From NCBI GenBank assembly GCA_020152595.1, contig JAIGNY010001798.1, positions 236,501 through 300,500 on the forward strand: a stretch of 64,000 nt of DNA, given 5' to 3'. Positions 29,734 to 60,303 of this stretch are shown here, piece after piece. The notes under the pieces are model-generated. The model worked only from the letters and a program-made list of their open reading frames with translations. It had not been told where the DNA came from and did no database searches. How positions within the stretch are numbered: position 1 is the stretch's first letter; the number at the start of each line of letters is the position of its first letter. This stretch comes from Chiridota heheva (taxonomy: Eukaryota > Echinodermata > Holothuroidea > Apodida > Chiridotidae). The position numbers and the translations under genes are program-made.

Positions 29734-30645
29734 ACACAAGAAAATAAATATTTCCAACAGACCATGCACTGGCAACTGACTACGATCCTAAATATGGTAA
29801 ACCCTCCTATCAGAATTCCTGGGTTTACTTACAGATATCGTGTTAGTATGATTTGATTCCGTTTCAACTTTCCCACTCCGTCTGCAATACCACGTGTATT
29901 TCAATTAGACCCCAGCACTAATGAACGCCGTGCACTGATTTGAGACCCCAGCACTAATGAACAGCGTGCACTCATTTGCGAAGACCCTCCAAATCATGTT
30001 CCATGATAAACTTTTAAGCCTGTTAATATGAATTTCTTCTGTCACCTCTTAAAGGTGGTGATCTAAACATTGTATTAAAACTTACATAAAATTATCTGAG
30101 GTTACGTACGTCATGCAAGCCTTAAGAAACATGATAATAATTAGGTTTTTGTACCTTCAAAATGTTGCTATCCCACGATACACGTTCCAAATGGAAAGTG
30201 AACACGCGCTCTAGAATTGACCCTATAAAGTGCCGCTTCAATAATTAAAGTAGTATGTTGCATTTTTAAACATAACAATTTCTTCTTCAAATTTGTATTC
30301 AATTCCTAAGAAAAATAAGAGCCTGACGCCTTTTCTTTCCATTCACCTACTAAAGAAAGGTCTTTAAAGTCCCCCACCACGACCTGATCTTAATGTTTCC
30401 AGTTTATAAGGCATAGATCCGATTGTCTTCTTTTTCAGTATCAGTTTTACTCAATTCATGAAAGAAACGAGAGCCGCCGCCTTTTCTCTCCATTTACCTA
30501 CTGAAGAAATGTCTTAACTCCACCTTCCCCCCACCCACCCTCCCCGTAAGATATGATTTTAGTGTTCCCACTTATTTATACTTGGAAAGGTTTTTCAAAG
30601 CCCCCCAACATGATTTTAATATTATCACTTTTAGTCCCACACCAA
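29734..30645. other. Spacer with small local duplications
   Basis: A ~35-bp direct duplication beginning 'gaccccagcactaatgaac' lies at about 29909-29985. A diverged tandem duplication of about 150 bp covers roughly 30290-30600; both halves share 'gccttttct(t/c)tccatt.acctact' (about 30328 and 30479). No gene recognised. Confidence 0.6.
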
Positions 30646-30649
30646 CCAG

Positions 30650-32540
30650 AAAATGCTCTAAATCACCAGTTTATACCTTGTGCAACCAGCCGCTAAAACA
30701 TGTCAACTCCTACTAGAGCTGTGAATGTTTAGGGATAATAGTAAACGTGTACACGCCCAAAAATGCAAGCGTGTATCGTGTACACGCGTTTAGTACCGTA
30801 ATTTTCAGAAATACACCAAAATTGCTCCAAAAAATCGCGCAACCAGTATGGCAAAAGTACTGTCTCCATTACCTAAATAGACGCTGAGTTTGGCTTTCAA
30901 AATCGTAAAAAGTTTACTTCTACAGTATAAATCATCATTTTTATGGAAAATATGCATGGAAATTCAGTTAAGAAAAAACAGATAACTTTCTTTCAATGTC
31001 ATTTAAACTCAACATCGCGTAACTTTTTTGTCCTATTTGCTACGGCTTTCGAAATTCTTCTGTGAAAATCTTGCATACTAGGCCTATGATATACCTCGTC
31101 GTAAAACATTTCAAAACTATGCCACCACCACCAGAAAGTTCTGAAATATCAGTCCTCTCGAAAAAATGGCTGCCATCTTTGCGACGCATGCAGAATTTCA
31201 GCTTTGTTAAAACATTTTACTGTTTGTTTATTATGCAATATTTTTTCTTTCTTGCAAAATTTAATTGACTCATCAGGTAATATTTACATGTAAATGTACT
31301 GATTGTCACCATTCAAGTATTTTTCAAGTGTTTTTTGGTCGATTTAACAGCTTGTAAAACGGGCCTTGATTGCGTGGGATTTTAGGCCTTGTGGCCTAAC
31401 ATTAGGCCTATTGTTAGTTTCATTGTTTACTGCTGCACATTCGCGGTGCATTTTACAAGTTAGATTACTCAGATTTTGGCGTAATCAAAGTGCATAATAT
31501 CCTCATTCATTGGTGATTACGGCGCATTTGTGATTCTCACATTTAAAAAAAGGTTATGCTAATCAGGTTTACAGTTTGTAAAAAGTCATTGATTGGAATT
31601 TTGTCAGCTGAATGTGTGTGTGATTTGAATCATGAATGATCATATTGATTTTTAATGGCAAGACTGACTATGAAAACAATTACTCGCAATGCAGTATTTA
31701 GTAAACGTTTACAAGATTTGCGAACGTGTAGCGTGTACACTCTAAACGGTCACAGCTCTAACTCCTACCCGTACCTTGGTTTTGAAATTGATAATAAACT
31801 CAGATGGGATACACATATACACAACATCACCAACAAAGCAAACTCTGTACTTGGCCTAATAGGACGTAACCTCTCAAACTGTCCCACTGACGTTAAAACC
31901 ACTGCATATAAAGCTCTAGTTAAGCCAGTACTTGAGTATGCATCAGCAGTTTGGGACCCCCATCACCAGTGCGATGTAGATAAGCTTGAATCAATTCAAC
32001 GGAGAGCAGAGAGGTTCTGTATGGCAGACTACTCTTATAAATCCAGTGTCATTAGCATGCTTCATAAATTAGATTGGACCCCTGCTAATAACAAGAAGGA
32101 ACACCAGTCTAAAATTGCTACATTAAATCAATAAGTCTTGTCGCCATTGATAATGATAACCTGATCCCAAACGCAAGAATTAATACAAGAAATAACCATA
32201 ATCTGAATTTCCACGTTCCTTATGCTAAAAAGAATGTTTATAAATACTCCTTCTTTCCTCAAACACTAAAAGATTGGAATGCTTTACCATCGGACATTGT
32301 ACATGCACCAAGTCTAAACTGTTTCAAGGCTAAACTTGCTAAGCTTGTTAATTGATATTTTGTATTTTTCTCATACTTTTGCTACAGTACATGGTTGGCG
32401 CTCATGTCCTCTAGAAGGATTTTTGCCGACTTAACCTATTCAGATTCAGAAAGCAAGCAGTTATCTATGTTTTGCAAATATCAGCCTGAAGTTTAAAGTG
32501 ATAACAATAATTTTCGCATAAGACTGAAAAAAAAAATAAT
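30650..32540 (+). mobile_element. CR1-type LINE copy, 5'-truncated, interrupted by a hAT element
   Basis: Codons at 30650-30713 (KSPVYTLCNQPLKHVNS-like) join across the hAT insertion to 31769-32134 (PYLGFEIDNKLRWDTHIHNIT and onward). Together they correspond to the RT thumb and C-terminal region of the minus-strand CR1-type LINE at 32541-36410. The C-terminus (KDWNALPSDIVHAPS-like, 32270-32330) and a 3' UTR follow, with 'ttggcgctcatgtcctct' and a direct counterpart in the other copy. Stops and indels make it inactive. Its 3' end abuts the 3' end of the other copy. Confidence 0.85.
30714..31760. mobile_element. Non-autonomous hAT transposon, 1,047 bp, inside LINE coding sequence
   Basis: The termini are TAGAGCTGTGAATGTTTAG and the inverse of TAGAGCTGTGACCGTTTAG. 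The 8-bp duplication ACTCCTAC lies at 30706-30713 and 31761-31768. Removing the element and one duplication rejoins the LINE reading frame seen uninterrupted in the neighbouring minus-strand copy, so the boundaries are independently confirmed. Longer subterminal inverted words rich in GTGTACACG occur at both ends. Frame 31062-31268 and other short frames show no transposase motif. Confidence 0.95.
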
Positions 32541-32730
32541 GGTCTTCAAACATAGCCAAGGCTATGTTTATTATAATTTATGGCATTATTAAGATGACAG
32601 CAAGATTATAAGAATATCTAAATCTGAATCGGTTAAGTTGACAAAAATCCTTAAAGAGGACATAAACGCCAACCGAGCGTAAAAAGTTTGAGTAAAAAAA
32701 AACTATTTAGCAATACAAGTGTTAGTAAGT

Positions 32731-34190
32731 TTAGCTTTGAAACACTTGAGACTTGGTGCATGTACAATGTCTGGCGGTAAAGCATTCCAATCCTTTGGTG
32801 TGTGAGGGACTAAAAGAGTGTTTATATACATTCTTTTTGGCATAGGGAACCTTGAAATTAAGATCATGATTATTTCTTGTATTAGTTCTGACGGTGGGGA
32901 TAAGTTCATCTTTATTGATGGAAACAAGATTGTTATTGATTTTATATAGCACATGTAGCCGGTTGTTGTATCTTCTTGTTTTTAGCAGGGGCCAATCTAA
33001 TTTATAAAGCATGCTTTTTACACTAGATTTATAAGAGTAGTCTGCCATACAGAACCTGGCTGCTCTTCTTTGAATAGATTCAACTTTATCCACATCGCAC
33101 TGGTGATGGGGGTCCCAGACTGCTGATACATACTCAAGTACTGGCCTGACTAGAGCTTTATAAGCAGTGGATTTAATGTCGGTGGGACAGTTTGAGAGGT
33201 TACGTTTTAATAGGCCAAGTACAGAGTTAGCTTTCTTGGATATGTTATGTATATGTTTATCCCATCTAAGTTTATTATCAATTTCAACACCTAGGTATGG
33301 GTTGACATGTTTTAGTGGCTGGTTGCATAAGGTATAAACAGGTGATTTAAAGCATTTCTTAGAGGAAATTGACAAGATGTAGCATTTAGAGAGGTTGAAA
33401 TTCATTTGCCATTTGTTTTGCCATTGTTCAAGTTTGTTAAGATCATCTTGGAGGATTTGTTGGTCAGAGGGGTTATCAATTGTTCTGTACACAAGGCAGT
33501 CATCAGCAAACAGTCTAACTGTGCTGTTTATATTATCAGGGATGTCATTGACATAAAGAAGGAAGAGTAATGAACATAACACAGTACCTTGTGGTACACC
33601 GGATACAACCTGTTTAAAATCAGAGTTTTCACCATCACAAACAACACGCTGGATGCGGTTGTTGAGGAATGATGCAAACCAGGCCAGGAGATTTCCATCA
33701 ATGCCATAGGCGGATTGTTTGGATAACAGGCGCTGGTGTGGGACTTTATTAAAGGCTTTTGAGAAGTCAAGAATAGCCATAGAGACATTACTGTTTTGGT
33801 CAATTTGTTCGGAGATATCATTTATTGTTAAGAGGAGTTGTGTTTCAGTCGATCTTTTTGCACGGAAGCCATGTTGTAAATCAGTTAAGACATTATGCTC
33901 ATCAAGGAATTTCATCACATGTGAGTGGATTATATGCTCAAGGATTTTACTACAAATGCAGGTGAGTGAAATAGGTCTGTAATTAGCTGGGTTTTGTTTA
34001 TCACCTTTTTTAAAAACGCTACATATGTTTGCTTCTTTCCACTTGTTAGGAATAGTACCACTATCGACAGAGGTTTGAAAGAGATCAGTTAGAATTTCAT
34101 AGAGGTCATCAGCGTGTGTTTTTAGAAACCATGGTGGTATTTGGTCAGGACCTGAGGCTTTGTTGGGGTCTAGGTTATGAGTTGCTTTTT
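32731..34190 (-). pseudogene. CR1-type LINE reverse transcriptase
   Basis: The frame is open from about 34190 to the stop near 32731. The first methionine-type start in it is a GTG at 33918, but coding similarity begins upstream with NLDPNKASGPDQIPPWF and FKKGDKQNPANYRPISLT. It is followed by LQHGFRAKRSTETQLL, MAILDFSKAFNKVPH (motif A), SGVPQGTVLCSLLFLLYVND and VRLFADDCLVYR (motif C, aspartates kept). The thumb follows with YLGVEIDNKLRWDKHI and a CR1-like C-terminus. It would act in target-primed reverse transcription. The RT itself is nearly intact, but the endonuclease upstream is broken. Confidence 0.88.
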
Positions 34191-34724
34191 GACACCCTGT
34201 GGGGTAATTATAAGTTGGTTTATTTTGCTGTTGGACAGTGGTTTAATTACAGGGATTTGGGAGGTGTTTTCTTCTGTAAAAACACTGAAAAACTGGTCAT
34301 TTAAAATGTTAGCTTTAGTTTTAGTAGATCAGACACACCTACAGAGTTACTTCTTAATCTTTCGATAAAGGACCAGAATGCCTTTGGGTTTTCGTTAAGT
34401 GAGTTTTCAAGTTTATCACAGATGAAGGTGTTTCTAGCTTCTTTGAGGTTTTATAAAGTTTTTATAGGTAGTCCAGTCATTGGCTTGTTGATTAGACTTA
34501 GCTTTTTTAAACAGTTTGTTTTTTCCTGCAGAGATGGCATTGGATACGGGTGAACCAGGGCAGATTTAGTTTAGTTGAGGTGAATTTGTGAGGCGTGTTT
34601 TTATCAATAATCAGTTTAATTTCCTGTTCAAAGAAATTCCATTTTTCATCAACATCATCAATGGAGTTATTGAATTGAGTATAATATTGAATTGTAAATT
34701 TGGTCAGGTCTTCTTTTATTCGTT

Positions 34725-35149
34725 TTATGAGAGCTTTTTCTTTAAATAGATTTTACGTTTAGGCAACTTTTTACGAGAAGGGGAGATATTTAGGGTCAGT
34801 TCAACAATATCATGGTCACTTATACCGGGAATGACATTAGCTGAGGTAACAGCTGGTGAATTGTTAGTAAAAACAAGATCAAGGATGTTGTTATCTTTGG
34901 TGGGTGACTGCACCATTTGTGTAAAATTGAATGAATTGGTCACTTCAAGAAGAATTTTGGCTGCTTCGGAGGAAGCGTTAGTTCCTGAGATAATGTTTTG
35001 ACTCCGGTCAATATTAGGTTGGTTGAAATCACCAGCAAGAAAACATTGTTTATGTCAGCATTTTTACCAAGCTTTTGAAGGGATTTTTTCAACTCAAGTA
35101 GGCTAGTAAGATCATTGTGACTGGGTCTGTAAAATGTTCCTATATACAT
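34725..35149 (-). pseudogene. CR1-type LINE endonuclease remnants
   Basis: Two short frames contain YIGTFYRPSHNDL (35149-34940) and SPTKDNNILDLVFTN plus ISDHDIVELTLN (34943-34725). These are the middle and the terminal SDH-type motif of an APE endonuclease. In-frame stops between 35290 and 35150 and a decayed GDFN-like region show loss of function. Confidence 0.8.
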
Positions 35150-35291
35150 GCTCTTTTCCTTAGGAAATTAAAATTTGGCCCAAAAAATTTCACAGTCAGT
35201 CTAATTTAGTGAGCTTAGTGAAAACCAGGTCATTTTTTATTGCCTGTAATACACCACCATAGCCATTTGAATTTATATTTCAGTGAACGAC

Positions 35292-36068
35292 TTAATAGTT
35301 GTCCGGGAAAATTTCAGCGCTAGTAATTTCGGAATTAAGCCAGCTTTTAGTGCCAATAATGACATCTGGGTCTTTTTCTTTGATAAGACTTTCCACGGAG
35401 GCCGTCTTGTTTCCAACACTCTGAAAGTTGATAACAAGAAGTTTTAGAACCTTCCTTTTTTCCCTTTTGGGATTTGTTATTAATTTGACATCGGGATGGT
35501 GGTTGGACCCCGAGTCAAGGCCAGAAGAACAATTTTGAAGTGGCTCATATGAGTTAGTACAGTTGATGGAATTGTTAGTTGAGAAGAAAGAATCAGAGAA
35601 GTTCATGAAGTCACAAGTGTCACACACCCAGGTACAGCTAGAATGCATGAGATCGCTGTATTTTGAGTCGTCATTGCTACAGCACTTAGTGTGGATCCAT
35701 AGATCACAATTGTCACACTGTGCAGCTTTTTCGGATCTCCTACACTGGAGTCCACACAAGCCACAAGGTGCCAAACATTCCGAACAAAACCAATCATCAG
35801 ATGATGATGCAAGAGTATTGTAAGCTGCATTACTAATGCCTGCACACTTACTATGAACCCACGAGTCACAATCATCACAACAAATACCTTTCTGGTTATT
35901 TTTGACAGATTTGTTGCATTGTTTGCAAGGATATTTTGGGGAGGGTCCAGGATTGCTTTCAATATCACAGAAAGGGAAAGGAGTAAAAGGAGTAATTTTC
36001 TCCTGCGTGAGTTGAATTTTGACAATTTCCAACTTGATTTGTACAAATGTAATTGCCCATCCATACAA
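35292..36068 (-). pseudogene. CR1-type LINE N-terminal frame: 2A-like motif, two PHD-type fingers, start of endonuclease
   Basis: The 258-residue frame has DIESNPGP at residues 35-42. A first PHD-type finger spans residues about 48-95 (CKQC, CCDDCDSWVHSKC, WFCSEC). A second cysteine-rich finger spans about 102-153 (CGLC, CDNCDLWIHTKC, WVCDTC). A Ser/Asn-rich linker follows, then LLVINFQSVGNKTASVESL and DPDVIIGTKSWLNSEI, the first strands of an APE endonuclease. It ends at a stop after FPDNY where family members continue. PHD fingers and 2A-like sequences are both known from CR1-clade LINEs of invertebrates. Whether the natural start is the local ATG at 36068 or lies in the upstream frame (see the separate entry at 36070-36388) cannot be settled here. 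Confidence 0.85.
35943..35966 (-). other. 2A-like ribosome-skipping motif DIESNPGP
   Basis: Codons GAT to CCC on the minus strand encode D-I-E-S-N-P-G-P, matching the 2A consensus D-x-E-x-N-P-G-P. In known 2A sequences the ribosome fails to form the Gly-Pro bond and restarts at Pro, giving two products from one frame. Here that would release a short leader from the PHD/endonuclease/RT protein. Activity is inferred from the motif; the residues before it (TPFTPFPFC) are not the usual leucine-rich helix in this frame. Confidence 0.75.
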
Positions 36069-36069
36069 A

Positions 36070-36388
36070 GATAAGTTGCAAGTGAGTGATTTGAATAATC
36101 ACTAGAGCCAAACAAGACATGGTAACCACTTCCTGGGGCATTTAGAGGCAAATTTGATGCCCGAGTTGAATGAGGTTGCGACGAATACAAGAAGTTTAGA
36201 GAGTCAGAGACTCGGGAGTATGTTAACAAAAACAGTACAGGGAAGACGAGGTTGTAAGTGAAAATGAACATGATTGGTGGCAAGAAGAATGAATATACTT
36301 GACAAACAGGAAACACAGACAGGTAGAGCAAATAAACACTGTAATACAGAAAAGAATATGAATGAAATGACGTATAGAAAACAAACAA
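36070..36388 (-). pseudogene. Hydrophobic upstream frame of the CR1-type LINE
   Basis: A minus-strand frame from an ATG at 36388 encodes several aromatic/leucine-rich hydrophobic segments (FLYYSVYLLYLSVFPVC and FPVLFLLTYSRV, for example). It stays open past 36070 into SRRRKLLLLLLS (to about 35975), just ahead of the 2A motif but in another frame. Leucine-rich residues normally precede 2A, so a frame change close to 35970 may separate the natural N-terminus from the motif in this copy. It could also be an independent upstream frame. Confidence 0.5.
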
Positions 36389-36410
36389 TAAACTTACTCA
36401 GGTCGCAGGA

Positions 36411-36924
36411 TTAATAATGTTCCGATCACCGAAAAAACGTGGAAATGGTAATAATACAAATAGTGTGTTAGGCTATATAACATTAGGTTCACAACCGTTA
36501 TGCAAAAATATAAAAAAACACAAAAACTGCATTAATAATAACAAAAACAAACAGACAGGCAATGAAAAGCACGAATAATTTGCAGAAACGTAAAACAATA
36601 ATGTATATCTAAGTGGGGTAAGAAAAATCCCCAGTTAAGAGGTAAAATATCCAATAAATAAATCTGGTTGTGAAAAATACGTCTGCACTCAACTTTGTAC
36701 GCTCTCTGCCTTGTATACATGTACATGTATCTAAGTATATTTACAATTAGGCCTATAGCTAAATCTAAGTTTTATGGCACACATGTAAATTGTAATTCGA
36801 AGTAGAGATGATGAAAAATATTCTTAATTTCCTGAATAATTATTTACTACATGACCATCCTTTTCTGAATACAAAAAGTACGAAGGCTTTATCGGAAATA
36901 TTTAATGGTGTAGGCCCTATTAAG
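36411..36924. other. Spacer without recognised gene
   Basis: AT-rich sequence between the 5' end of the CR1-type LINE and the duplicated block that hosts the gypsy element. No motif recognised. Confidence 0.5.
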
Positions 36925-37380: not shown

Positions 37381-38814
37381 TCATTTTACTTCAACACAGA
37401 AAATCTTCCAAGTATTTGGGTGGCCTACGGATTCTCTGGGGTTTGGGCGATGAACAGGTATTTCCCTGGGGTTTCCCTCGGCTAGGCACTCTTGGAAATT
37501 GGGTGGAGTTTTTAGTTCCCCGGCCTCATTTGACATTTCCTGTGTCAATTCCCCTGTCCCGGGATGAAGTTTCTTCATATGTGCTACATTGCGTTTATAC
37601 AGGACTCCTTCTGGGGACTGCACTGTAGCCTGGCCCCCCAACTTGTCAACCACCTCGAAAGGCATTTCATGGAAGGGCGCCGTTAATCTATTTTGTTTAG
37701 GCTGGCGCACCAAGACTTTATCCCCCCTTTTTATGTCACTGACCCTTGCCTTTCTTGCCTGATTGGCGTAATCCTTCCCTTTTTGCTTCATTTCCCTATC
37801 CCTATCACGTATGTTTTTAACTTCCCTCTGAGGGGTTTTCCACTGAGGAACTTTGGTCTTTTCTCTTGAACAGGAGTTCAGCCGGACTACTACGAGTCGT
37901 GCTGTGTGGTGTGGACCTGTATGCAAGAAGGAATGTTCTGAGTTCCTTTTCCCAGTCTCCTTTGTGAAGCTGGGCTATTTTCAGCCTTTTTAATAAGGTC
38001 CGATTTTGTCTCTCCACCTCCCTATTGGCTTGTGGCCAAAGTGGCGTTCTGTGCCTGTGTTCTACACCACAATTGTGTAAGTATTCCTGAAACTCCCTTG
38101 AGACAAAATTTGCCCCATTATCTGTTTTCAGGGAATCGGGGTACCCATGAGTAGCAAACATGTTTTCTAAACTATTGATGAGTTTTCGAGGAGACAGTTG
38201 ATCTGAGAATATCGACCTCAAAATATCTACTATAATAGTCAAACCAATATGTATCTCCCATCAGAGAGCGGCCCTCGCAGGTCGGCCGCCAAATCTACCC
38301 ATGCTTCACTGGGCAGTGGTGTTGATGAAACGGCTTCAGGGTGTTGCATCTGCCCGACCACCTGACACTCGTGACAAGATTCACATTTGTTTTCCATGTG
38401 CCGGTCTACCCCTGGCCACCACACCTTGGAACAGAGCCTTTCTCTGCACTTCACGTTGCCCTGGTAACCCTCATGGGCGAGTTCAACCACTTGCTCCCTC
38501 AAATTCTGGGGGATTACAATTCTGGTCTCTCTTAAGACAACTTTACCCACCACTGCTAATTCATATCTAACTGCTTTGAATTTTGCTGGTAATTCATCCC
38601 AGTTTTCTGACAAGATGCACCTCCTCAAGGTACTGGTCTCCTCATCCTTACTAGATTCGTATTCAATATCCCTAATTGAAACTGCCTTTGGTACAGCATT
38701 CTTTGCTATGAACCTAACATACTCTTCAGTATTGTCATATGGTTTTGGCTCTTGCTTCGTCAAACATGACAATGAATCAGCAATATTTGTCTCACCCAGA
38801 ATATGTTTTACCAC
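37381..38814 (-). pseudogene. Gypsy integrase, in three frames
   Basis: The first frame (38814-38239) has the zinc-binding region with HEGYQGNVKCRERL, VWWPGV and CESCHECQ, and the first catalytic Asp region (AWVDLAADLRG). The second (38242-37817) has SLKTDNGANFVSREF (second Asp) and NREVERQNRTLLKRL (Glu). The third (37926-37381) holds the C-terminal DNA-binding part with RGDKVLVRQPKQNRL and VLYKRNVAHMKKLHP. All DDE residues remain, but the frame breaks prevent one continuous enzyme. Confidence 0.88.
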
Positions 38815-38853
38815 GAACCCATACGGCTAGAGGCGTATATAATACCCACCGCT

Positions 38854-39180
38854 CTACACTAGCTGAAGGTTTCGACTTCTTCGAGTATATAAACTCAAGG
38901 AGCTTGTGGTCTGTAAGCAGCTCGAATCTGATACCATCAAGTATGTATGGAACCTTTCGCATGCCCAGACCAGAGCTAGCGCCTCCTTTTCGGTTTGAGA
39001 GTATCTTCTCTTTACGTCTGTGAGACTCCTACTGGCATAGGATATTACCCGGTTTTGACCACTTTGGGTTTGGACCAGTACAGCGCCTAAGCCTACTGGT
39101 CCTGCGTCAGCTATAATCTGGGTCTTTGCCTTTTTATCAAAGTACCCCAAGGTTTCTGAACTACTAAGGGCCTGCATCAA
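38854..39180 (-). pseudogene. Gypsy RNase H, frameshifted
   Basis: The frame has TQIIADAGPVGLGAVLVQ (first catalytic Asp), ISYASRSLTDVKRRYSQTEKEALALVWACERFH (Glu helix) and then leaves the family reading frame after FHTYLM. A break near 38920 ends similarity. Confidence 0.85.
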
Positions 39181-39222
39181 AGCTTTGAATACATTTTGTT
39201 GTTCGGGTCCCCACCTGAAAAG

Positions 39223-40188
39223 TTAATTCTTTTTAGTCAACCTTCGTAATGGTTCTAAAACAGTGGCTAGTTCTGGGATAAATCTAGCACAATACTGGAC
39301 CAGACCCAGGAAGCTACGGACCTCGGAACTAGTTTTGGGTTCACTAGCTTCTTTGACAGCTTTTACCTTCTCTTCGGTTACATCTATCCCCATTTTGGAC
39401 AACTTGTAACCCATGAATATCAGCTCTGGCATTCTAAATTCACATTTCTCTTTGTTTAGTGTCAAACCTGCTTGCTTAATCTTTTCTAGCACTTTGAACA
39501 GCCTTTCATCATGCTCTTTTGCATTTGTACCATGGACAATAATATCATCAAAAATGTTGTGGGCCCCCTCACACCCCGCAATTGTTTGCTGAATGATGTG
39601 CTGATAAATTTCCAGTGCTGAACTAATGCCAAACATTAGTCTTTTATATCGGAAAAGCCCTTTGTGAGTGGCAAATGTTGTGACATCTCTCAAATTTTCC
39701 ACCAGTTCAATTTGGTGGAATCCCCATTTTAGATCTAGTTTGCTAAACACACAACTGCCATTCATATCATGAAGCACCTCCTCCACTGTTGGAATGGGGT
39801 ACCTTTCACGGATGATGGCTTCATTGGCCTGGCGCATATCCATGCACAGCCGAATGTCATCCCCTGACGGTTTAGGGGCGCAGACTATAGGGCTAACCCA
39901 GGAAGTGGGCCCTTTAACTTCCTCGATTATGTCTATATCTTTCAATTCATTCAACTTCTTTTCTACTTTGTTTCGAATGCCAAAAGGAATTCTACGGGTT
40001 TTTTGTGCCACCGGTTTCACGTTTGGATCCACAAACATCTCTGCTTGATACCCTTTTAATTTCCCAAACCCTGTAAAACATTCTGGGAAACATTTGTGAA
40101 TATCGCCTGAATCATCAGGCTCTACCATGTAAACCTGGGGCCCAAAAGAAAGGACTTTCAACTCTTGCGCCGTATCCCTGCCAAGCAA
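39223..40188 (-). pseudogene. Gypsy reverse transcriptase
   Basis: A 321-residue frame carries the gypsy RT series: PVAQKTRRIPFGIRNKVE, SPIVCAPKPSGDDIRLCMDM, YPIPTVEEVL, FSKLDLKWGFHQIEL (motif A, DL) and FATHKGLFRYKRLMFGISSA. It continues with NIFDDIIVHG (motif C, DD retained) and MGYKLSKMGI. The frame stays open through the connection domain (RSFLGLVQYCARFIPELA). It is the best preserved part of the element. Confidence 0.92.
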
Positions 40189-40481
40189 CAGGTATCCTTC
40201 CCCTCTAATACATAAAATTCAACATTTTCTGAAACTTTGTTTTCAATATTCAGGGTGGCGGTAAACTTGCCAAGTATATCTAAAGGCTTAGGGTCACCAT
40301 AGGGATATAATGTTTTTTGAACTTTTTCAGACCTACACTTGATCTTTCCAGCTTTTAAGGTCCCCCATGTGCTTTTCCCCATGACTTTGCAAGAAGCGCC
40401 TGAATCCATGAGCATCTCCATTTCGACACCTTTAATCATAGCCTTCACTTTTCCCGTCCTTGGCGTATCATCGATATTCAC
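40158..40481 (-). pseudogene. Gypsy aspartic protease
   Basis: The frame contains MLMDSGASCKVM, the D-S/T-G active-site turn of retroelement proteases, with a plausible flap and second hydrophobic strand following. It overlaps the start of the RT frame by about 30 bases in a different frame, so either a frame change or natural frameshifting separates them. Confidence 0.8.
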
Positions 40482-43744: not shown

Positions 43745-44029
43745 CCGTCCGCTTATGTATCCCTCTATTTTAATTCTGACGTAATCCTAGGGCGCATACA
43801 TTGCATGGACTGTACTATTGTGTGCAGAGGGTTTCCTGTTGTAAACATGCTGTGGAGAGGCAAATAAGTTTTTCCAGACCGTTTTTCAAAGTTTCTCATC
43901 AGTGCGCCTTGTCTAAGAAACTTTTGAAATGAAGTTGCATGTGTACTAAATTTAATTTGTTTTGCTTTAAAGATATTTCATTAGAACTGGCTAGTTGTTA
44001 AATAAAATGTCTAAAGTTCCATTCCACAT
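43745..44029. other. Spacer, no gene seen
   Basis: No motif recognised between the SINE and the next minisatellite. Confidence 0.4.
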
Positions 44030-44440
44030 GGTCTTGCAGGGTACGTTCAAGGGGAAGGGTACGTGTAAAGGGGAGGGTGCGTTCAAGGAAGCGGGTAAGT
44101 TCAAGGGGCGGGTATGTTCAAGGGGGTACGTTCAAGGGGAGGGTGCGTTCAAGGGGGAGGTACTTTTAAGGGGGAGGGCACGTTCAAGGGGGATGGTACA
44201 TTCAAAGGGGAGGGTGTGCGTTCAAGGGGGCGGGTGCGTTCAAGGGGGAGGGTACGTTAAGCGGGAAGGGCGTGCAAGGGGGAGGGTGCGTTCAAAGGGA
44301 GGGTGCGTTCAAGGGAAGGGTACGTTCAAGGGGGAGGGTACGTTCAAGGGGAGGGTATGTTTAAGGGGGAGGGTATGTTTAAGGGGGACGCTACGTTTAA
44401 GGGGGAGGGATTCAAGGGGGAGGGGTTCAAGGGGGAGGTA
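44030..44440. repeat. GA-rich minisatellite, ~18-bp unit
   Basis: Diverged copies of GGTACGTTCAAGGGGGAG, many with one- or two-base indels. The open frame at 43995-44441 is a by-product (G/R/K-rich peptide). Confidence 0.92.
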
Positions 44441-44699
44441 GAGGGGTACTTCACCTTTTTCTCAATTTAAAGGAGACATAAATTATGATGGAATCATTGC
44501 TCCATAATTAGGTAAGGGGATTAAAATCTAACCAACTATTGAAATCTTGTGAATGATGAAACTATTTCCCCAACAGGGACAAGAATTGTAATGCATTTCT
44601 TTACCAATTTTATTCCCAATTGATGTGACACAAAGTTTTCACCCCATGTTTTGATAATTCATGAATACACTTAAATGTTTATTGACCCTAAGCGTACAA

Positions 44700-45180
44700 A
44701 ACAGCGGATTGCTAAGATGGGCCCTTTTTCTGATCACCTTCCCCGATGTGGGTGCCCCTTTCTTGGACTTTAGTGGTTGCTAAGATGGGCCCCTTTTCTG
44801 ATCGCCTTCCCCGATGTGCGGGCCATTTCATTGACCTCGTTGGTTGCTTAGACAGGACCCCATTTTTGATCGCTTTTCCATATGTGGGGGACCTCTTGCA
44901 TGGACCTCATCAGTTGCTTAGACAGAGCCCCTTTTCTGATTGCCTACCCCGTTGTGGGGCCCTTTTCACGAACCTCGTTTGTTAATAAGATGGGGCCACT
45001 TTTCTGATTGCCTTTCCTGTTGTAGGGGCGCTTTCATGGACCTCAACTGTTGCTAAAATGGGGCTCTATTTCTGAGTCTTCCCTGATGTGGGGGGGCCCT
45101 TTTATAGACCTCGGTGGTTGCTAGAATGGTGCCCCTTTTCTGATCGCCTTCCCCACTGTGAGGGCCCTTTTCATATATAC
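44700..45180. repeat. Tandem repeat, ~68-bp unit, about 7 copies
   Basis: The words 'ttgctaagatggggcc', 'ctgatcgccttcccc' and 'catggacctc' recur with spacing of 67-70 bp. Frames across it (44746-44985, 45088-45303) repeat the same short peptide and are not genes. Confidence 0.9.
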
Positions 45181-45944
45181 TGTGTATTAGAAAGGATTAA
45201 AAAATTATTTTATAGTGTGAATGTGATGATGTTAAGTTATATTGTATTTTTACAGGTGAAAATTTTCAGAAAGGTCCCCACATTTCTAAATCTGGCTTGC
45301 TAGTAGTATTAAAGTTTTCGATAATTACAAAACTTGTGTTAGATTGCTTCGGGAGGTATGAAACTTGGTCAGAAGAAGTTTTTTGTTTATTCTATCAAAT
45401 GAAATGAGGATTCTGTCAAACTTCATGTCCCCTTTAATATATTTTGTATGTTGATGTTTGCAACTCAGTGTAATCAGTGTGCTTTCACCCCCAATCACAC
45501 ACACACACACACACATGCACTTCTGATAGGCATATGATTTTAAGACTTCCTCCCCCTCCACACACACTTTTGCTACGCAAATGCCGCATATGACGTATTG
45601 ACATCCAATAACATTCATACATTTTGGGGGATCTAGAGTAGCAAGAAACTTGACAAGCAAAATGCTAATTACGTTTTCAAATACAATTTTTGCTGTTTTC
45701 AAATATTGTATGAATTGGCACAAAAGACACCTATTGCTTAAAGCATACAACACAACACAGACAGTATGGCACCACCAATACTAAGGGAATTCATCTTGTA
45801 ATCCATGAGTGTCAGAAAAGTTTGTCCCTTTCCTCTTCTTCTCAAGGCAAATATTTATATGTACCTCTTCGGTCCGTGTACGTTTCGGCCAATCATTTTC
45901 GGAGAGGGTAAGGGTCAGAGGCGGCAGAAGATGTTTGAATCTGG
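45181..45944. other. Spacer with (CA)n run
   Basis: A (CA)n run lies at about 45495-45516. The minus frame 45325-45753 contains it and shows no recognisable domain, so I do not call a gene. Confidence 0.55.
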
Positions 45945-46720
45945 GGCACAGGATCTGAGGCACAGGATCTGAGGCACAGGATCTGAGGCACAGGATCTGA
46001 GGCACAGGATCTGAGGCACAGGATCTGAGGCACAGGATCTGAGGCACAGGATCTGAGGCACAGGATCTGATCTGGCACAGGATCTGAGGCACAGGATCTG
46101 AGGCACAGGATCTGAGGCACAGGATCTGAGGCACAGGATCTGAGGCACAGGATCTGAGGCACAGGATCTGAGGCACAGGATCTGAGGCACAGGATCTGAG
46201 GCACAGGATCTGAGGCACAGGATCTGAGGCACAGGATCTGAGGCACAGGATCTGAGGCACAGGATCTGAGGCACAGGATCTGAGGCACAGGATCTGAGGC
46301 ACAGGATCTGAGGCACAGGATCTGAGGCACAGGATCTGAGGCACAGGATCTGAGGCACAGGATCTGAGGCACAGGATCTGAGGCACAGGATCTGAGGCAC
46401 AGGATCTGAGGCACAGGATCTGAGGCACAGGATCTGAGGCACAGGATCTGAGGCACAGGATCTGAGGCAGGATCAGGCACAGGATCTGAGGCACAGGATC
46501 TGAGGCACAGGATCTGAGGCACAGGATCTGAGGCACAGGATCTGAGGCACAGGATCTGAGGCACAGGATCTGAGGCACAGGATCTGAGGCACAGGATCTG
46601 AGGCACAGGATCTGAGGCACAGGATCTGAGGCACAGGATCTGAGGCACAGGATCTGAGGCACAGGATCTGAGGCACAGGATCTGAGGCACAGGATCTGAG
46701 GCACAGGATCTGAGGGGCAC
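45945..46720. repeat. Highly homogeneous minisatellite, 14-bp unit, about 55 copies
   Basis: The unit is GGCACAGGATCTGA and nearly all copies are identical. Irregular units occur at about 46070 and 46470. Three units make 42 bp, and the minus strand has no stop in any frame, so long minus-strand frames (45781-46704, 45893-46750) of SDPVPQILCLRSCA-type repeats appear. They are artefacts of the unit. Confidence 0.97.
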
Positions 46721-47075
46721 TTTCTGTTGTATTTTCAAAGCATGTAGCACAGCAATATATACAAATTCGTAGGGTCAACCCTCGTCCCCACCCAACATTT
46801 TTCCCCTTCTTTTTTATTTACAGTTTCAGAAATTATATATATTTTGGTCCAAAATTTGGAAAATAGAACAACATTACTGACTTCTAATCAGCTTGTAGAA
46901 TGAACAATTTTCAGGTTAGTTATGGCAGTATGTGCAAAAATTGAAGTTGGGACCGGCTCCTCGGGCCCAGCAGCGCCCCTATGTGTATCTTACAAGAAAG
47001 AAAGTTCATGTTGGGGGTCAAATACTCACTTCTGAAAATTGTGGTGTCATACCCCCCACCCCCCTCCTTCACTCA

Positions 47076-47110
<35 letters not shown>

Positions 47111-47227
47111 CCGGCGCCTATGTTAATGTTAATGGGTCCAAATTGAAGCATAGAATTGCCCTTCTTTTGGGCATTATTACGACTAGGGAATAAACTTCTT
47201 CAGCCCTTCCAAAAATTAATTCAGAGA
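46721..47227. other. Spacer with (CA)n run
   Basis: A (CA)n run occupies about 47078-47107. No gene recognised. Confidence 0.55.
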
Positions 47228-48188
47228 CATCTCCCTGTTTGACCCCTATGCATCTCCCTGTTTGACCCCTATGCATCTCCCTGTTTGACCCCTATGCATC
47301 TCCCTGTTTGACCCCTATGCATCTCCCTGTTTGACCCCTATGCATCTCCCTGTTTGACCCCTATGCATCTCCCTCTTTGACCCCTATGCATCTCCCTCTT
47401 TGACCCCTATGCATCTCCCTGTTTGACGCCTATGCATCTCCGTTTGACCCCTATGTATCTCCCTGTTTGACCCCTATGCATCTCCCTGTTTGACCCCTAT
47501 GCATCTCCCTGTTTGACCCCTATGCATCTCCCTGTTTGACCCCTATGCATCTCCCTGTTTGACCCCTATGCATCTCCATGTCCCCTATGCATCTCCCTGT
47601 TTGACCCCTATGCATCTCCCTGTTTGACCCCTATGCATCTCCCTGTTTGACCCCTATGCATCTCCCTGTTTGACCCCTATGCATCTCCCTGTTTGACCCC
47701 TATGCATCTCCCTGTTTGACCCCTATGCATCTCCCTGTTTGACCCCTATGCATCTCCCTGTTTGACCCTATGCATCTCCCTGTTTGACCCCTATGCATCT
47801 CCCTGTTTGACCCCTATGCATCTCCCTGTTTGACCCCTATGCATCTCCCTGTTTGACCCTATGCATCTCCCTCTTTGACCCATATGCATCTCCCTGTTTG
47901 ACCCCTATGCATCTCCCTGTTTGACCCTATGCATCTCCCTGTTTGACCCCTATGCATCTCCCTGTTTGACCCTTATGCATCTCCCTGTTTGACCCCTATG
48001 CATCTCCCTGTTTGACCCCTATGCATCTCCCTGTTTGACCCCTATGCATCTCCCTGTTTGACCCCTATGCATCTCCCTGTTTGACCCCTATGCATCTCCC
48101 TGTTTGACCCCTATGCATCTCCCTGTTTGACCCCTATGCATCTTCCTGTTTGACCCCTATGCATCTTCCTGTTTGACCCCTATGCATC
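47228..48188. repeat. Minisatellite, 23-bp unit, about 42 copies
   Basis: The unit reads CATCTCCCTGTTTGACCCC plus TATG. Most copies are identical; occasional variants include CTCTTTGACC and a shortened unit near 47578. Confidence 0.97.
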
Positions 48189-49139
48189 ATGGACATGTCA
48201 AACTGCTAATTTAATTGTGTCAAAGTCAACATGATCATTTTATTCTTTCATCCAAAGCTCCTGTGATTGTTGTTGCAGAACATAAACTAAATGATTTTTT
48301 CCTTCCGCTTTAAGGTTCATACTGACACGAAAGAAATCAAATCAGTACACAGGAAGCAGTAAGTGCAAGATAGGTGCCACTGAATGTATTTTACAGTAAA
48401 ACATATCAATAACACATCTGGCAATTATGTTATAAATATGCTAACAAATTATTGTTTTAGTTTGAATAAAACCTTACAAGAAAGAAGAACATAAGGCAAA
48501 CAGACACAATATGATAAGAGCATTTTAAACATAACTTTTTAACTAGAACTGTCGGAAGGACAGTATGCTCGACTATTCAAAGCTAGTATTGAGAATGGGG
48601 TTATAGAGGAAAGTATATACAGAAATACGTTAGCAGGGCAGATGATTTTAAATTACTTGAGCTGTAAAAGATGCACTTACATTTTCATTTGCACTACAAG
48701 CTTCAAAATATCTTTTGTGTTTTCCAAGGTATATTACAACGAAAAAAGGCTTAAGATTACCTCACCCAGTAACTCAGAAAACATGTAAAACCTAGCAGTC
48801 TTTATAACTACAACACCTCTTTTAGTTCTATCAATTGAATAACAAAGAAAGGAGAGGCCCTGACTTGCCAATGTCAATGTAAGAATGCCATTTAACCCCC
48901 CCCCCCCCCTTCCTTCCCTTTTTCAACCTGTACCCTCCCCAACCCCCACACATTACCAGATCTACATCCTGGATTGTAATACAACTTCCAATTTAAGAAA
49001 ATATGAGTGTCAAGCAAAGTCAAGCAGCATGGAAAATGTACAATAACATTAAAGCAAAATTATGCGAAACAATATTGCTGGACGTACGACAAACTAGACA
49101 TTGAAAACGATACAAATCCCCTCACGCTAATTATATATT
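48189..49139. other. Spacer without recognised gene
   Basis: AT-rich with a C-rich run at about 48896-48910. No protein or repeat family recognised. Confidence 0.5.
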
Positions 49140-49385
49140 CCAGACTGCTCACATTCTATCCCAACCTGTCCCAAATGTCATCCCATGTCTATACTCCATG
49201 CAATCACACCTGAAAACCAGATACTGTATGTCATTCCACCACTTGATGACCCACATGCCATCACAACTGAAATCCAGTGCCAATCCACCCTGTCTAACAT
49301 GCCAACACATCCTGACCAACATCTCACCGCACCCTGCCCTACATACAATTCCACCTTGTCCCACATGACCTCATCCTAATTCCTT
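49140..49385. repeat. Strongly decayed relative of the 24-bp minisatellite
   Basis: Recurrent 'atgccatcac', 'cccacatg' and 'catcccatg' words, irregularly spaced, resemble the core of the composite elements at 12.5 and 62.3 kb. No element ends are visible, so this is either an old copy or a separate degenerate array. Confidence 0.5.
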
Positions 49386-49639
49386 CAGCTACTTTATCAT
49401 TGTGTCATCTTCTACCCCACATTCTGCTTATTGTTTATATTTATCCAACCCCTAAATTAACATTCTTTAGAGGGGAGGAAACTTATTTGCTTCTTCATTC
49501 ATGGCAAGACAAGCATTTTAATTGCTATTCATGTCAGGAATATCAATATCATAACAAAACTATAAATGTAAAGTTAGTAGGCCATAAGCCATATATTTTT
49601 GATCTCAGGTCAAACATATTGCAGCAAAGGCACACTATG
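49386..49639. other. Spacer, no gene seen
   Basis: AT-rich; frame 49400-49651 shows no domain. Confidence 0.4.
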
Positions 49640-50575
49640 CCTCACCATTAGGTGTGAACAATGCTCTTCACATATACTGTATGATCATTTGTTTAAGCAA
49701 AATCATCATACCCACTTTAATTCAAGAGATACCACATATACAAACATTTTCATTGCTATGCAAATAGGCTAATTATTATGCACACACAACCCCCCAATCA
49801 TGCTCAACTGAACAGTACCAATGCCCTTTACCACTAAACCAAATAGCAAGTTATTATCTCAGGTTAAATATTTTATGCAAATCTATTGTTATGCAAATAA
49901 CCTAATTAATATGCACACTACACCTCACCATTAGGTGTAGGTAGACAATGGTCTTCACATATATGATCATTTGTGTAAAACAAAATCCCCACTCCCACTT
50001 TAATTTAAGAGATATCATAGATACAAATATTTTCATTGTTATGCAAATAAGCTAATTAGTATGCACACACAACCCCAATCATGCTTATTTGAACAGTACC
50101 CATGTCCTCTACTCCTGTGCCAAATTACATGAATGTACATCATTCATAACTTAAGTTATGCTCTCATGAATGTTAAACATTTTGTACAAAAATATGTTAT
50201 TCAAATAACCTAATATGCACCTCACCTCATGCATTAAGTGTAGATAATGATCTTCATATAGATGATCATTTGTGCACAAAATCCCCACATCCACTCTAAT
50301 TTAAGAGATATCATAGATACAAATATTTTCATTGTTATACAAATAAGCTAATTAGTATGCACACACCTCTAATCATGCTTACTTGAACAGTACCCCTATG
50401 CCAAGTTACATGAATATACACCATTCATAACTTAAGTTATAAAACCTTTAACCAAAACTTTAACCTGACAAATATCTTCATTGTTATGCAAACAAGCTAA
50501 TTAGTATGCACACACAACCCCCCAATCATGCCCATTTGAACAGTACCCATGTCCTCTACCCCTCTGCCAAGTCAC
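49640..50575. repeat. Tandem repeat, ~280-300-bp unit, about 3 copies
   Basis: The words 'caccattaggtgt' and its variant 'catgcattaagtgt' occur near 49643, 49926 and 50227. Each is followed by '(tt)cacatat.tgatcatttg', 'aagagatatcatagatac', 'gcaaataagctaattagtat' and 'aatcatgc...gaacagtacc'. Copies are diverged. No coding capacity. Confidence 0.85.
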
Positions 50576-50910
50576 ATGAGTGTACAACATTCAAAAAAGT
50601 GTATCTTGATTTTGTTGTTAAATTTCCTCAAATGGAGGATAATTCCATACAGTACTTTTTTATTTCAGGAGGTGAGAAAGGAGGGAGGGGGGGGGAGAGG
50701 GTCCTTCCTCCAAATTACCAGAAGAATTTCAGTCCCCCACTTTTTCAGAAGATTACAGTACTTAATTTGAAATTTCAACTTATAATGCAAAAAGGTTTCA
50801 TAAATCAGTACATGTTTTTTGGTCATTTGCTACACCTTAAATTAAACTCCAGACATGGAGACTAAAGTGATACCTCCATGCTTCAGAGCTGCACAAAACA
50901 ACAATGAAGA
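50576..50910. other. Spacer with a G-rich run
   Basis: Contains GGAGGGAGGGGGGGGGAGAG at about 50680-50699. The frame 50506-50865 is not recognised. Confidence 0.4.
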
Positions 50911-51189
50911 CACTCAAGCAAAGATAACCAGCAAGTCACTCAAGCAAACATAACCAGCAAGTCACTCAAGCAAACATAACCAGCAAGTCACTCAAGCAAA
51001 CATAACCAGCAAGTCACTCAAGCAAACATAACCTCAAGCAAACATAACCGTTACTCAAGTCACTCAAGCAAACATAACCAGCAAGTCACTCAAGCAAACA
51101 TAACCAGCAAGTCACTCAAGCAAACATAACCAGCAAGTCACTCAAGCAAACATAACCAGCAAGTCACTCAAGCAAACATAACCAGCAAG
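50911..51189. repeat. Minisatellite, 26-bp unit, about 10 copies
   Basis: The unit reads CACTCAAGCAAACATAACC plus AGCAAGT. One shortened unit lies near 51030-51055. Confidence 0.95.
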
Positions 51190-52815
51190 GGTGATTAACA
51201 GGGATAGTATTCCACACAACAGAGGATATTGTGCACTGTAGTGTAGTGTGACCAAAGGGTACCTCCTTGGTGTAAATAGTCAGCTGCAGGCAATTATTTA
51301 CACATCAGCACATAATTTCCAGTTTTGACTGCAGATTTTAATGAAAATGAAAATCATTAGTTGTTCTGCTCCTTAAAGTTTTAAACAGTCAGACCCGACC
51401 TAATACATAACCAGGTCGGGTCAGATGTTTCCTCTTTATTTTCTTTATTCTGAAAACCTTAGTTGTTGTGGAAGTTGGTGCTGAGTATCATATTAGCAAT
51501 GGATGAAGTCCTTATTGTGTGGTTATTTTAATTAAGATAAAGTGGTCTCACTATTTGCTACAGTAAGTTTGTGGTTATGATTTGCTGGAACAAATTTTTA
51601 AGGAGAAGGACAAGTCATGATTGCTTTATTCTAGGTAAGCAAACAGTAAATGAAAAACTAAATACACCCCCGTGTGGAGATTTTCATGCTCTTCCAGATT
51701 GTCAAATTTCAGAAGTCTTTTGCCAAAAACCACCGACTAAATAATTTCAAAAACAGGAGACGAAAATTAACAGAAATTCCCACTCTATAACCTCAACTTT
51801 GTTGAGCTAAAAACCATTATTATATCTCTAATTTTTTAAGAAAATGAAAGATCATTTTAAGATATGCTTTGAAAGTTTAGCTACTGGACATAAACAGTAT
51901 ACTACTTCAGTAGAGTACCTATATGTGACACAACAGTATGATGAAGAAACATAAAATTGCAAAAATTCATGGAAAATCAATGCAAGCATAAAGATTTTTA
52001 GACACAGAGGTTGGTGGAAGCCCCTATGGGAAGGAGGGGGGGGGGGCAAGACAACATTTTTGTTTGAACAATTTTTCCCCAACACCCCAACCACAGTACG
52101 GGGAAAATGTTTTCAAAAATGTGTGTATTCTTTTTCAAAACAAGTCTACCCACGTCCGCTTCACCCAGGAACTACAGCCCTGCATTCAGGAACCACAAAA
52201 AGTCTTCGAAAGTACTTAGTGAGCTTTAACACCTTTCCTTTCCATCTCTCCTTTTTCTTTCTTCCCATTTCTCTTCTATATTTTTTTCCTTTTTTTTCCT
52301 CATCTGTTTCTTTGTAGAGAACTGACAAATTTCTGGGATCACTGGTGTCATGGCTTGCCACCCCTGTTAACTGCTACCAAATTAAACCATTAAGTAGCAA
52401 TCAATCCAATGTAAATTTCCTATACAAACATCAAAGCAACACTTTTACTTCCTAAAAAGTGCCAAACATAAATATATGACTGAAGATCTAGACTTTCACA
52501 GTTCACAAAATTTAGATTGCAAACTTAGTGCCCACATGAGTTTCTCTCCTCTTCAATACCAACAAACAAAACAAAACTTATCTTAAAAGTGCATTTTGAA
52601 GAATCATAACAAATATAAATGTTGAAATTTTGAGTACAAACCTTTATGGCTATGGTGCAAGTGCTACAGTGCTGACAAATATGAGTTGTATTTCTTGTAT
52701 ATGCAAATGTGAGTCTAATAAAGTGAGAGTCTGTATAACCTAATAACTTTATGTGTCTTACAGTGTAAAAATAGTTAACAAGTCTATACAAATTTGTATA
52801 CAAAATCTGAAACAC
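51190..52815. other. Spacer without recognised gene
   Basis: AT-rich. A short inverted pair 'agacccgaccta' / 'ccaggtcgggtc' lies near 51391-51422 and could form a hairpin. Frames at 51852-52094, 52060-52317 and 52525-52845 show no family or splice context. Confidence 0.5.
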
Positions 52816-54078
52816 CTGGGAATTGCTTTTCATCTGATTCGTCAAACTCTACCTAACCATCAAATTAAGGTATGTTAGGAGTGACTGTATACATTTATGC
52901 ATTTCTTTCCTTCTTGGGAATTGCTTTCCATCTGATTCTTCAAACTCAACCTAACCATCAAATCTAGGTATGTTAGGAGTGACTGCATACATTTATGCAT
53001 TTCTTTCCTTCTTGGGAATTGCTTTCCATCTGATTCTTCAAACTCAACCTAACCATCAAATCTAGGTATGTTAGGAGTGACTGCATACATTTATGAGTTT
53101 CTTTTCTTTTTGGGAATTGCTTTCCATCTGATTCTTCAAACTCAACCTAACCATCAAATCTAAATATGTTAGGAGTGACTGCATACATTTATGTGTTTCT
53201 TTTCTTCTTAGGAATTGCTTTCCATCTGAATCCTTAAACTCAACCTAACCATCAAATATAGATATGTTAGGAGTGACTGCATACATTTATGCATTTCCTT
53301 CCTTCTTGGGAATTGCTTTCCATCTGAATCCTTAAACTCAACCTAACCATCAAATATAGATATGTTAGGAGTGACTGCATACATTTATGCATTTCTTTCC
53401 TTCTTGGAAATTGCTTTTCATCTGATTCTTGGAACTCAACCTAACTATCAAATCTAGGTATGCTAGGAGTGACTGCATACATTTATGCATTTCCTTCCTT
53501 CTTGGGAATTGCTTTCCATCTGATTCTTCAAACTCAACCTAACCATCAAATATAGATATGTTAGGAGTGACTGCATACAATTATGCATTTCTTTCCTTCT
53601 TTGGAATTGCTTTCCATCTGATTCTTGGAACTCAACCTAACCATCAAATCTAGGTATGCTAGGAGTGACTGCATACATTTATGCATTTCTTTCCTTCTTG
53701 GGAATTGCTTTCCATCTGATTCTTGGAACTCAACCTAACTATCAAATCTAGGTATGCTAGGAGTGACTGCATACATTTATGCATTTCTTTCCTTCTTGGG
53801 AATTGCTTTCCATCTGATTCTTGGAACTCAACCTAACCATCAAATCTAGGTATGCTAGGAGTGACTGCATACATTTATGCATTTCTTTCCTTCTTGGGAA
53901 TTGCTTTCCATCTGATTCTTGGAACTCAACCTAACCATCAAATCTAGGTATGCTAGGAGTGACTGCATACATTTATGCATTTCTTTCCTTCTTGGGAATT
54001 GCTTTCCATCTGATTCTTGGAACTCAACCTAACCATCAAATCTAGGTATGCTAGGAGTGACTGCATACATTTATGTGT
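52816..54078. repeat. Tandem repeat, 99-bp unit, about 12-13 copies
   Basis: Each unit contains GGAATTGCTTTCCATCTGAT, 'actcaacctaaccatcaaat' and 'aggagtgactgcatacattt'. Two sequence subtypes alternate ('cttcaaactc' in the left units, 'cttggaactc' in the right units), suggesting local spreading of variants. Confidence 0.96.
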
Positions 54079-57087: not shown

Positions 57088-57751
57088 CTGAAAAGAACAA
57101 ATGAATGAATTGCAATAAAGTCATGTAACTAATATTTGGTTGTAATCATAACCAGACCTTAAAACTTTTTAATGCTCAAGCAATGTTATTATTTATTTTT
57201 TTCTGGTCGTTTCGTATTAAGGATTCACAATTCACTTTCCCAGTTGCACATAATACCCAAAAATAATATCTGGACATACATACATTTATATCAAGTCTGC
57301 CTGTGGCACAACCAATTTTCTAGTAAAATTGGTGTAAGACAAAATATTTTAAGGAATTCGATTGTCTCAATAGTAGACTTTGCAAACCAGTCACATCTCA
57401 ACAAATGGTACAGAACTGAAAACTGAAATATCTCCTAAACAGAATAAGATTTTTGAATGCTTTCTTCTGCAGTTTGTTTCTTTTAAAGTTTTCTTTCGTA
57501 AATGATGGACATGTTTGACCACTGACATAATCTTTCAATTGGTCCCTGTACTGAAAGCTTGAAAGTTAATGTCTAATCAGTTATAGATTAATAACACCTG
57601 GCATTTTGTGCCTTTATGAAATACTGAAAAAGTGAAACATCAAATTTTGAAAGAACAATCTTAAAATATGCACAAAGCTTATATCTTCATAGAAGATTGG
57701 TTGATCATCCTTCTTAGAAGTTTTACTTCATGTGAAATTTAGTTTTTTGAA

Positions 57752-60025: not shown

Positions 60026-60303
60026 GACATTTGTATTATTTTATGCAAAGTGGTTGCTACCTGTCCATGTACAGTACCTGTAGGGCATTTGTATTATTCT
60101 ATGCAAAGTGGTTGCTACCTGTCCATGTACAGTACCTGTAGGGCATTTGTATTATTCTATGCAAAGTGGTTGCTACCTGTCCATGTACAGTACCTGTAGG
60201 GCATTTGTATTATTCTATGCAAAGTGGTTGCTACCTGTCCATGTACAGTACCTGTAGGGCATTTGTATTATTCTATGCGAAGTGGGTGCTACCTGTCCGT
60301 GTA
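60026..60303. repeat. Intronic tandem repeat, 58-bp unit, about 4-5 copies
   Basis: Each unit contains GGTTGCTACCTGTCCATGTA and 'gggcatttgtattattctat'. The frames 60002-60199 and 60166-60351 only reflect the repeat. Confidence 0.95.

Follow-up and report, generated by a model that had tools for sequence, protein, structure and literature searches.

The window, i.e. the whole 64,000-nucleotide stretch of Chiridota heheva DNA which we have analysed, holds on its minus strand a LINE copy with a 2A/StopGo core in front of two PHD fingers and an APE endonuclease. The parts of this copy are the following, with coordinates given as positions in the window.

32616 to 36705, minus strand: LINE copy of about 4.1 kb, decayed yet full length, with termini shared by most of the long copies of its family
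36272 to 36705, minus strand: 5' untranslated region, before the leader ATG
35967 to 36271, minus strand: leader reading frame MFIFTYNL...RRRKLLLLLLSLS; in this copy it is frameshifted by the loss of one base directly ahead of the 2A core
35943 to 35966, minus strand: 2A/StopGo core octapeptide DIESNPGP, exact motif
35775 to 35927, minus strand: PHD finger 1, C4HC3, Pfam PF00628; the closest solved structure is the Pygopus PHD
35613 to 35765, minus strand: PHD finger 2, C4HC3, Pfam PF00628
35295 to 35450, minus strand: start of the APE endonuclease (VLKLLVINFQS...), assigned by reading; a stop at 35294-35292 ends the frame in this copy
34725 to 35054, minus strand: rest of the endonuclease, Exo_endo_phos_2, PF14529, E 8.1e-07
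32731 to 34242, minus strand: reverse transcriptase and C-terminal region, RVT_1, PF00078, E 5.5e-32

The earlier note on this DNA reported an exact DIESNPGP followed by two PHD fingers and an APE endonuclease, and both statements were borne out. The octapeptide is present at 35966-35943 (minus strand), where it is the single match in a six-frame scan of the window for D-x-E-x-N-P, and it continues in frame with SPKYPCKQC... into the PHD fingers. The frame which carries it is 268 amino acids long from stop to stop (36098-35292, minus strand), covers both fingers and the start of the endonuclease, and is matched by Pfam PF00628 in two stretches (E 3.8e-11). The Pfam match for the endonuclease falls in the next piece (34725..35054), not in the start piece (35295..35450), and both this remainder of the endonuclease and the reverse transcriptase pieces stand in frames other than that of the motif. 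The note also had this arrangement in one reading frame, which is right for the family and wrong for the window copy, where the stretch 36388-35967 is out of frame with the motif because one base is missing just before it. From the leader ATG (36271-36269) to the GAT codon there are 305 bases in this copy and 306 in the family majority, the lost base belonging to the glycine codon (position p11) that precedes the D of the core. There is no methionine ahead of the motif in the motif-bearing frame of the window copy, and the in-frame peptide found there, EKITPFTPFPFC, is without a leucine-rich SG context. The frameshift before the motif and the broken frames rule out an active element at this locus, and the window copy is a dead member of its family.

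The surroundings of the copy are rich in repeats. Two stretches on the plus strand, 31649-32355 and 30462-30716, are fragments of the 3' part of this LINE or of a closely similar one, in the orientation opposite to the main copy; they show up as inverted repeats (31767-32081 with 32988-33302, 89% complementary) together with three shorter pairs. Upstream of the LINE, at 37381-40218 on the minus strand, there are open frames which by eye resemble reverse transcriptase, RNase H and integrase of a Ty3/gypsy-type LTR element. Large tandem arrays are found from position 1, at about 44000-60300, at 12500-14100 and at 62300-63800, and their periods are about 56, 14, 25, 23, 17 and 98 bases; the 24-base arrays near 12.5-14 kb reappear near 62-63.8 kb, where some stretches are 90-93% identical.

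The family of the window copy, which we call family A, was sampled with a 601-base query; 40 matches, the window's included, were scored of 516 first-look candidates, and the family alignment is made up of the window copy and 39 fetched copies, 20 long and 19 short. Among the 20 long copies the 5' end lies at most 7 bases from 36705 in 12 and the 3' end at most 6 bases from 32616 in 15, some of the fetched stretches stopping short of the 3' end. The element ends in GATTCA-type repeats, and no poly-A was seen at this end in 15 copies and the window copy. The 5' untranslated region of the family majority contains two short upstream open reading frames of 18 and 30 amino acids. The coding part of the majority then reads in one frame MFILTHNLVFPVLFLLTYSRVSDSLNF...KLSKFNSRRRKLLLLLLTLSGDIESNPGP-SPKYPCKQC, with 109 residues up to NPG, and leader and motif together terminate in RRRKLLLLLLTLSGDIESNPGP. 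A leader peptide in front of the motif, as proposed in the earlier note, is therefore found in the family, and at 109 residues it is longer than the word "short" used there implies. The note would have been contradicted by a family consensus lacking NPGP; the consensus keeps it. Each of the core residues D(V/I)ExNPGP is kept in 37-40 of the 40 copies, and the exact core is present in 29 of them, the window's among these; a core of the form (D/G/C/N)(V/I)ExNPGP is found in the window copy, in the family majority and in a sister family, A'. ATG, leader and motif are open in one frame in 12 of the 40 copies, or in 14 when two with a changed ATG are included, so that a frame which is continuous on both sides of the 2A exists in the family and not in the window copy. 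Stops or indels interrupt the frames of every one of the 20 long copies; one of them, L013, keeps one modal frame. The arrangement leader-2A-PHD-PHD-endonuclease is real at the family level.

The context of the core can be compared with the StopGo classes described by Li et al. (2026; PMC12846837). According to that paper, D-type cores strongly prefer G at p11, and leucine-rich upstream motifs end in (A/S/C)G and accompany D at p12 and S at p15; when characteristic upstream residues were mutated, activity was nearly abolished in almost all cases tested. The family majority has LLLLLLTLSG upstream and thus shares with the viral leucine-rich active class (LLLLSG-like) the leucines, the SG, the D at p12 and the S at p15, the difference being that family A is a LINE and not an RNA virus. 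Judged by these residues family A fits the leucine-rich StopGo class, and the window copy does not.

Behind the motif the family majority shows the C4HC3 pattern twice. Finger 1 has its best solved-structure match in the Pygopus PHD (1e-08), and its tyrosine and tryptophan align with two Pygopus residues which we take to be those of the binding pocket; this is compatible with a putative methyl-lysine reading by finger 1. A single-sequence AlphaFold model of the PHD part was uninformative (mean pLDDT 32). Of the 20 long copies, 17 have leader and PHD in a common frame; the first piece of the endonuclease agrees with the PHD frame in 10 of 20 and the second in 9 of 19. A single open reading frame spanning from leader to endonuclease is well supported. 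Its continuation to the reverse transcriptase is likely, and L013 has all seven pieces in one frame; one continuous frame up to this domain is not demonstrated, because among 19 copies the reverse transcriptase follows the PHD frame in 8 and a second frame in 7. Short tandem repeats instead of poly-A at the 3' end are a mark of the CR1/L2 lineage, and the element has both these repeats (GATTCA-type) and the APE endonuclease and reverse transcriptase (PF14529 and PF00078). We classify it on these features as a multi-copy LINE of the CR1/L2 lineage, possibly with a single ORF. The narrower CR1 label used before is putative, and the element may belong to another clade of the lineage.

The number of motifs to be expected by chance was calculated with a first-order Markov model of the window, which gives 0.0004 per window for D-x-E-x-N-P-G-P and 0.00005 for D(V/I)ExNPGP, the latter corresponding to about 0.8 per 1.1 Gb. 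In the assembly to which the window belongs (1.1 Gb, 3744 contigs) a DNA pattern for D(V/I)ExNPGP, which omits the GTG valine codon, is matched 350 times (165 and 185 by strand) and its reversed form 0 times; a DV-only pattern is matched 41 times, against 1 for the reversed control. Sorted by codon string, the first 100 listed of the 350 hits consist of 63 A-like, 15 A'-like, 13 B-like and 4 C-like cases and 5 others.

Family B (13 copies) has a leader of 79 amino acids whose start, MEPHSIKLKNLSLSVLILLLSIRITTGA, looks by eye like a signal peptide; downstream follows, also by eye, an endonuclease without PHD, and a Pfam search with one downstream piece of this family gave no match. Over the 112 codons that follow the motif, the variants shared among B copies (L048-L051, L060, L061, L077-L083) show an odd excess of nonsynonymous changes, 19 against 1 synonymous. 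In family C (L052-L054) and in the hits L056, L058, L114-L118 and L120, which make up several LINE-like families, a DVExNPGP site is situated between a leader and a coiled-coil protein. These downstream proteins resemble LINE ORF1s by eye, partly only in another frame; for family C the comparison with Pfam and PDB gave only weak matches of coiled-coil type, all under the Pfam cut-offs, and "ORF1-like" is therefore a by-eye reading. The leaders of C and L058 begin with MGIS..WR..IG.F, and none of four leader types had a match in Pfam. Four further hits (L055, L057, L059, L121) are decayed or ambiguous. In one copy of family A, L014, a different LINE is inserted in the PHD region (sense strand 3061-5586), and in this nested LINE LHPNPGP precedes a PHD match that is weak (E 0.00095, under the Pfam cut-off). 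Since the motif precedes differing proteins, the placement of 2A seems to be independent of the downstream protein. Families B and C and the single hits were all found via the motif, and its conservation in them is for this reason no evidence. One scan of one collection of viral contigs revealed no relatives.

Copies decay after insertion, and selection was therefore sought between families; the singleton variants in A have N/S values of 0.89 to 1.65 of the neutral expectation, depending on region, i.e. near or above it. The comparison was made with A', a diverged sister family with a homologous leader. Between the two majority sequences dN/dS is 0.18 for the leader (81 codons, bootstrap 95% 0.06-0.34), 0.15 for the PHDs, 0.23 for the linker and 0.19 for the endonuclease part, and the last 120 bases before the ATG have diverged with indels. 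The A' copies of this first sample were found via the motif, and a second sample was therefore drawn with a motif-free query (40 scored of 762 candidates; 30 newly fetched, 10 from the earlier set). The exact core is present in 23 of these 40, one copy (L100) without a homologous leader being counted as a miss here and left out of the 39-copy majority. This majority is identical to A over the core and matches that of the first sample over leader and 2A, and it gives for the leader a dN/dS of 0.19 (0.07-0.40, 87 codons). The 36 base changes in the leader alter 13 residues, where the neutral mean is 24.1 and none of 5000 simulations gave a number as low. Variants found in at least 4 copies of A have, relative to neutral, N/S values of 0.30 in the leader (4 N, 5 S), 0.38 in the PHDs (4, 3), 0.37 in the endonuclease (7, 6) and 0.97 before the ATG (5, 2). 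From the 2A through the endonuclease, nonsynonymous changes make up a smaller share of such shared variants in A than of the singletons (P 0.00014); the leader taken by itself shows no difference of this kind in A (P 0.33), and in A' alone the shared variants of the leader are not reduced (0.90). The shared variants of family B show no purifying selection in its leader (1.69), and selection on the leader is therefore claimed for A/A' only. There the leader appears to be preserved by selection, and its dN/dS, similar to that of the PHDs and the endonuclease, makes it very likely that this is a translated protein under selection.

The explanation which we favour, and consider probable as a whole, is that StopGo releases the selected 109-residue leader and that PHD-PHD-endonuclease, probably with reverse transcriptase, is made free of it. 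It builds on the observed motif, its context and frame, the conservation among copies, and the selection between A and A' on leader, PHD and endonuclease. In intact copies the leader would be translated first, ending in the class-typical StopGo peptide LLLLLLTLSGDIESNPG, and the ribosome would most likely skip the Gly-Pro bond between NPG and P. The leader would thereby be set free as a separate protein, and PHD-PHD-endonuclease, and probably the reverse transcriptase, would be made next, starting with proline. The leader would then be a selected gene product in the place where other LINEs have ORF1, and the PHD fingers of the second product may bind chromatin.

A second role for skipping depends on how the leaders begin. 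Ranked by hydrophobicity among 752 ATG peptides, those with unknown residues being excluded, the leader N-terminus is at the 96th percentile in A, the 95th in A' and the 99th in B, against the 32nd in C and the 67th in L058. The frame before the leader ATG is also hydrophobic and the sense strand is T-rich, so the hydrophobicity is partly compositional. The hydrophobic start suggests membrane targeting by the A and B leaders, and since it is present in family A, skipping may in addition keep the enzyme from travelling to membranes with the leader. The same N-termini in A, A' and B could be taken to mean dual targeting: skipping would be incomplete by design, and a part of the PHD-endonuclease-reverse transcriptase would stay fused to a signal-like leader and enter the secretory pathway, for which PMC4981915 offers a precedent in the 2A signal sequences of sea-urchin NLR proteins. 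We find this unlikely, as C and L058 carry the motif without a hydrophobic N-terminus, the T-rich strand explains part of the hydrophobicity, and a membrane-bound endonuclease-reverse transcriptase would presumably have no evident use.

It is still less probable that the motif is a relic, StopGo having once been used while recent master copies start translation downstream or make one fused protein. Such a view would agree with the decay of the examined copies, and dN/dS of the 2A codons alone does not speak to it. The purifying selection on these codons which the earlier note made a test of its proposal was not significant: in the first comparison 29 codons with 6 base differences gave 0.59 (0.06-1.91), and with the second A' sample 5 differences in 23 codons gave 0.48 (0-1.84), differences too few for selection on the segment to be judged alone. 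What argues against a relic is that the leader seems to have been selected since the split of A and A', and that the end of the segment is near-identical in both majorities; they share the last 13 residues, TLSGDIESNPGP, and the flanking leucines, and differ there in one L/F exchange and in two residues where the 22-residue segment begins. That the motif is a chance octapeptide in junk reading frames, as the lack of an open in-frame leader in the window copy might be taken to indicate, is extremely improbable in view of the genome-wide excess over the reversed pattern and the conservation across copies. We thus return to release of the leader by StopGo as the preferred reading.

2A recoding is already known from APE-type LINEs, as PHD fingers are from CR1/L2 LINEs; family A is a new family. 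Odon et al. reportedly described 2A-like sequences in APE-type non-LTR retrotransposons (MBE, 2013), active ones being said to occur in the CR1, L2, Rex1 and Ingi clades and their presence to correlate to some degree with one-ORF elements; Heras et al. are said to have described a 2A-like sequence in L1Tc in 2006. Family A resembles these LINEs in having the 2A core within an APE-type LINE product; what may set it apart is the 109-residue leader before the 2A, for which there is evidence of selection, and the two PHD fingers after it. In addition, this genome seems to place 2A before coiled-coil proteins; if their by-eye reading holds, the C-like cases would be exceptions to the one-ORF correlation.

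Metcalfe and Casane (2014; PMC4120745) described CR1 and L2 subgroups, apparently with one ORF, in which a PHD finger is N-terminal; their Type IIIA, the single-ORF PHD LINEs, comprises CR1 subgroup 6 and L2 subgroup 4. No functional work on LINE PHDs was known to these authors, who suggested general targeting during integration. Family A shares with Type IIIA a PHD upstream of the endonuclease and possibly the single ORF, and the Pygopus PHD (2vpb) is among the top matches both for several of their subgroups and for finger 1 of family A. It deviates in having two C4HC3 PHDs instead of one, and in the 2A-terminated leader in front, of which the Results and Discussion of PMC4120745 make no mention. 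The sea-urchin NLR proteins (PMC4981915) also have a 2A near a hydrophobic N-terminus. They are products of host immune genes, and their signal consists of a 26-residue 2A-like sequence right at the start of the protein, whereas the 2A of family A closes a 109-residue leader. A partial literature search covering parts of PMC4981915, PMC4120745, PMC12846837, PMC5972666 and PMC11512398 yielded no description of 2A and PHD in one LINE, and on this basis we do not claim that the combination is unpublished.

A wider and tentative view, which we hold possible rather than probable, is that the LINE StopGo leaders of this genome form a self-standing module. Varied leaders would be placed before PHD-endonuclease-reverse transcriptase, before plain endonuclease-reverse transcriptase and before coiled-coil ORF1; the leader of the PHD family would be selected and would have taken the role of ORF1, perhaps at membranes, with the enzyme half freed for the nucleus.

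To our knowledge, 2A in LINEs has been discussed as a means of product separation, and little has been said of the upstream product. In family A this product is now testable, being 109 residues long, present in many copies and having a dN/dS like that of the enzyme domains. It opens the question which protein serves such LINEs instead of ORF1p, and whether the effect of skipping is to hold a membrane-seeking leader apart from a possibly chromatin-reading endonuclease-reverse transcriptase.
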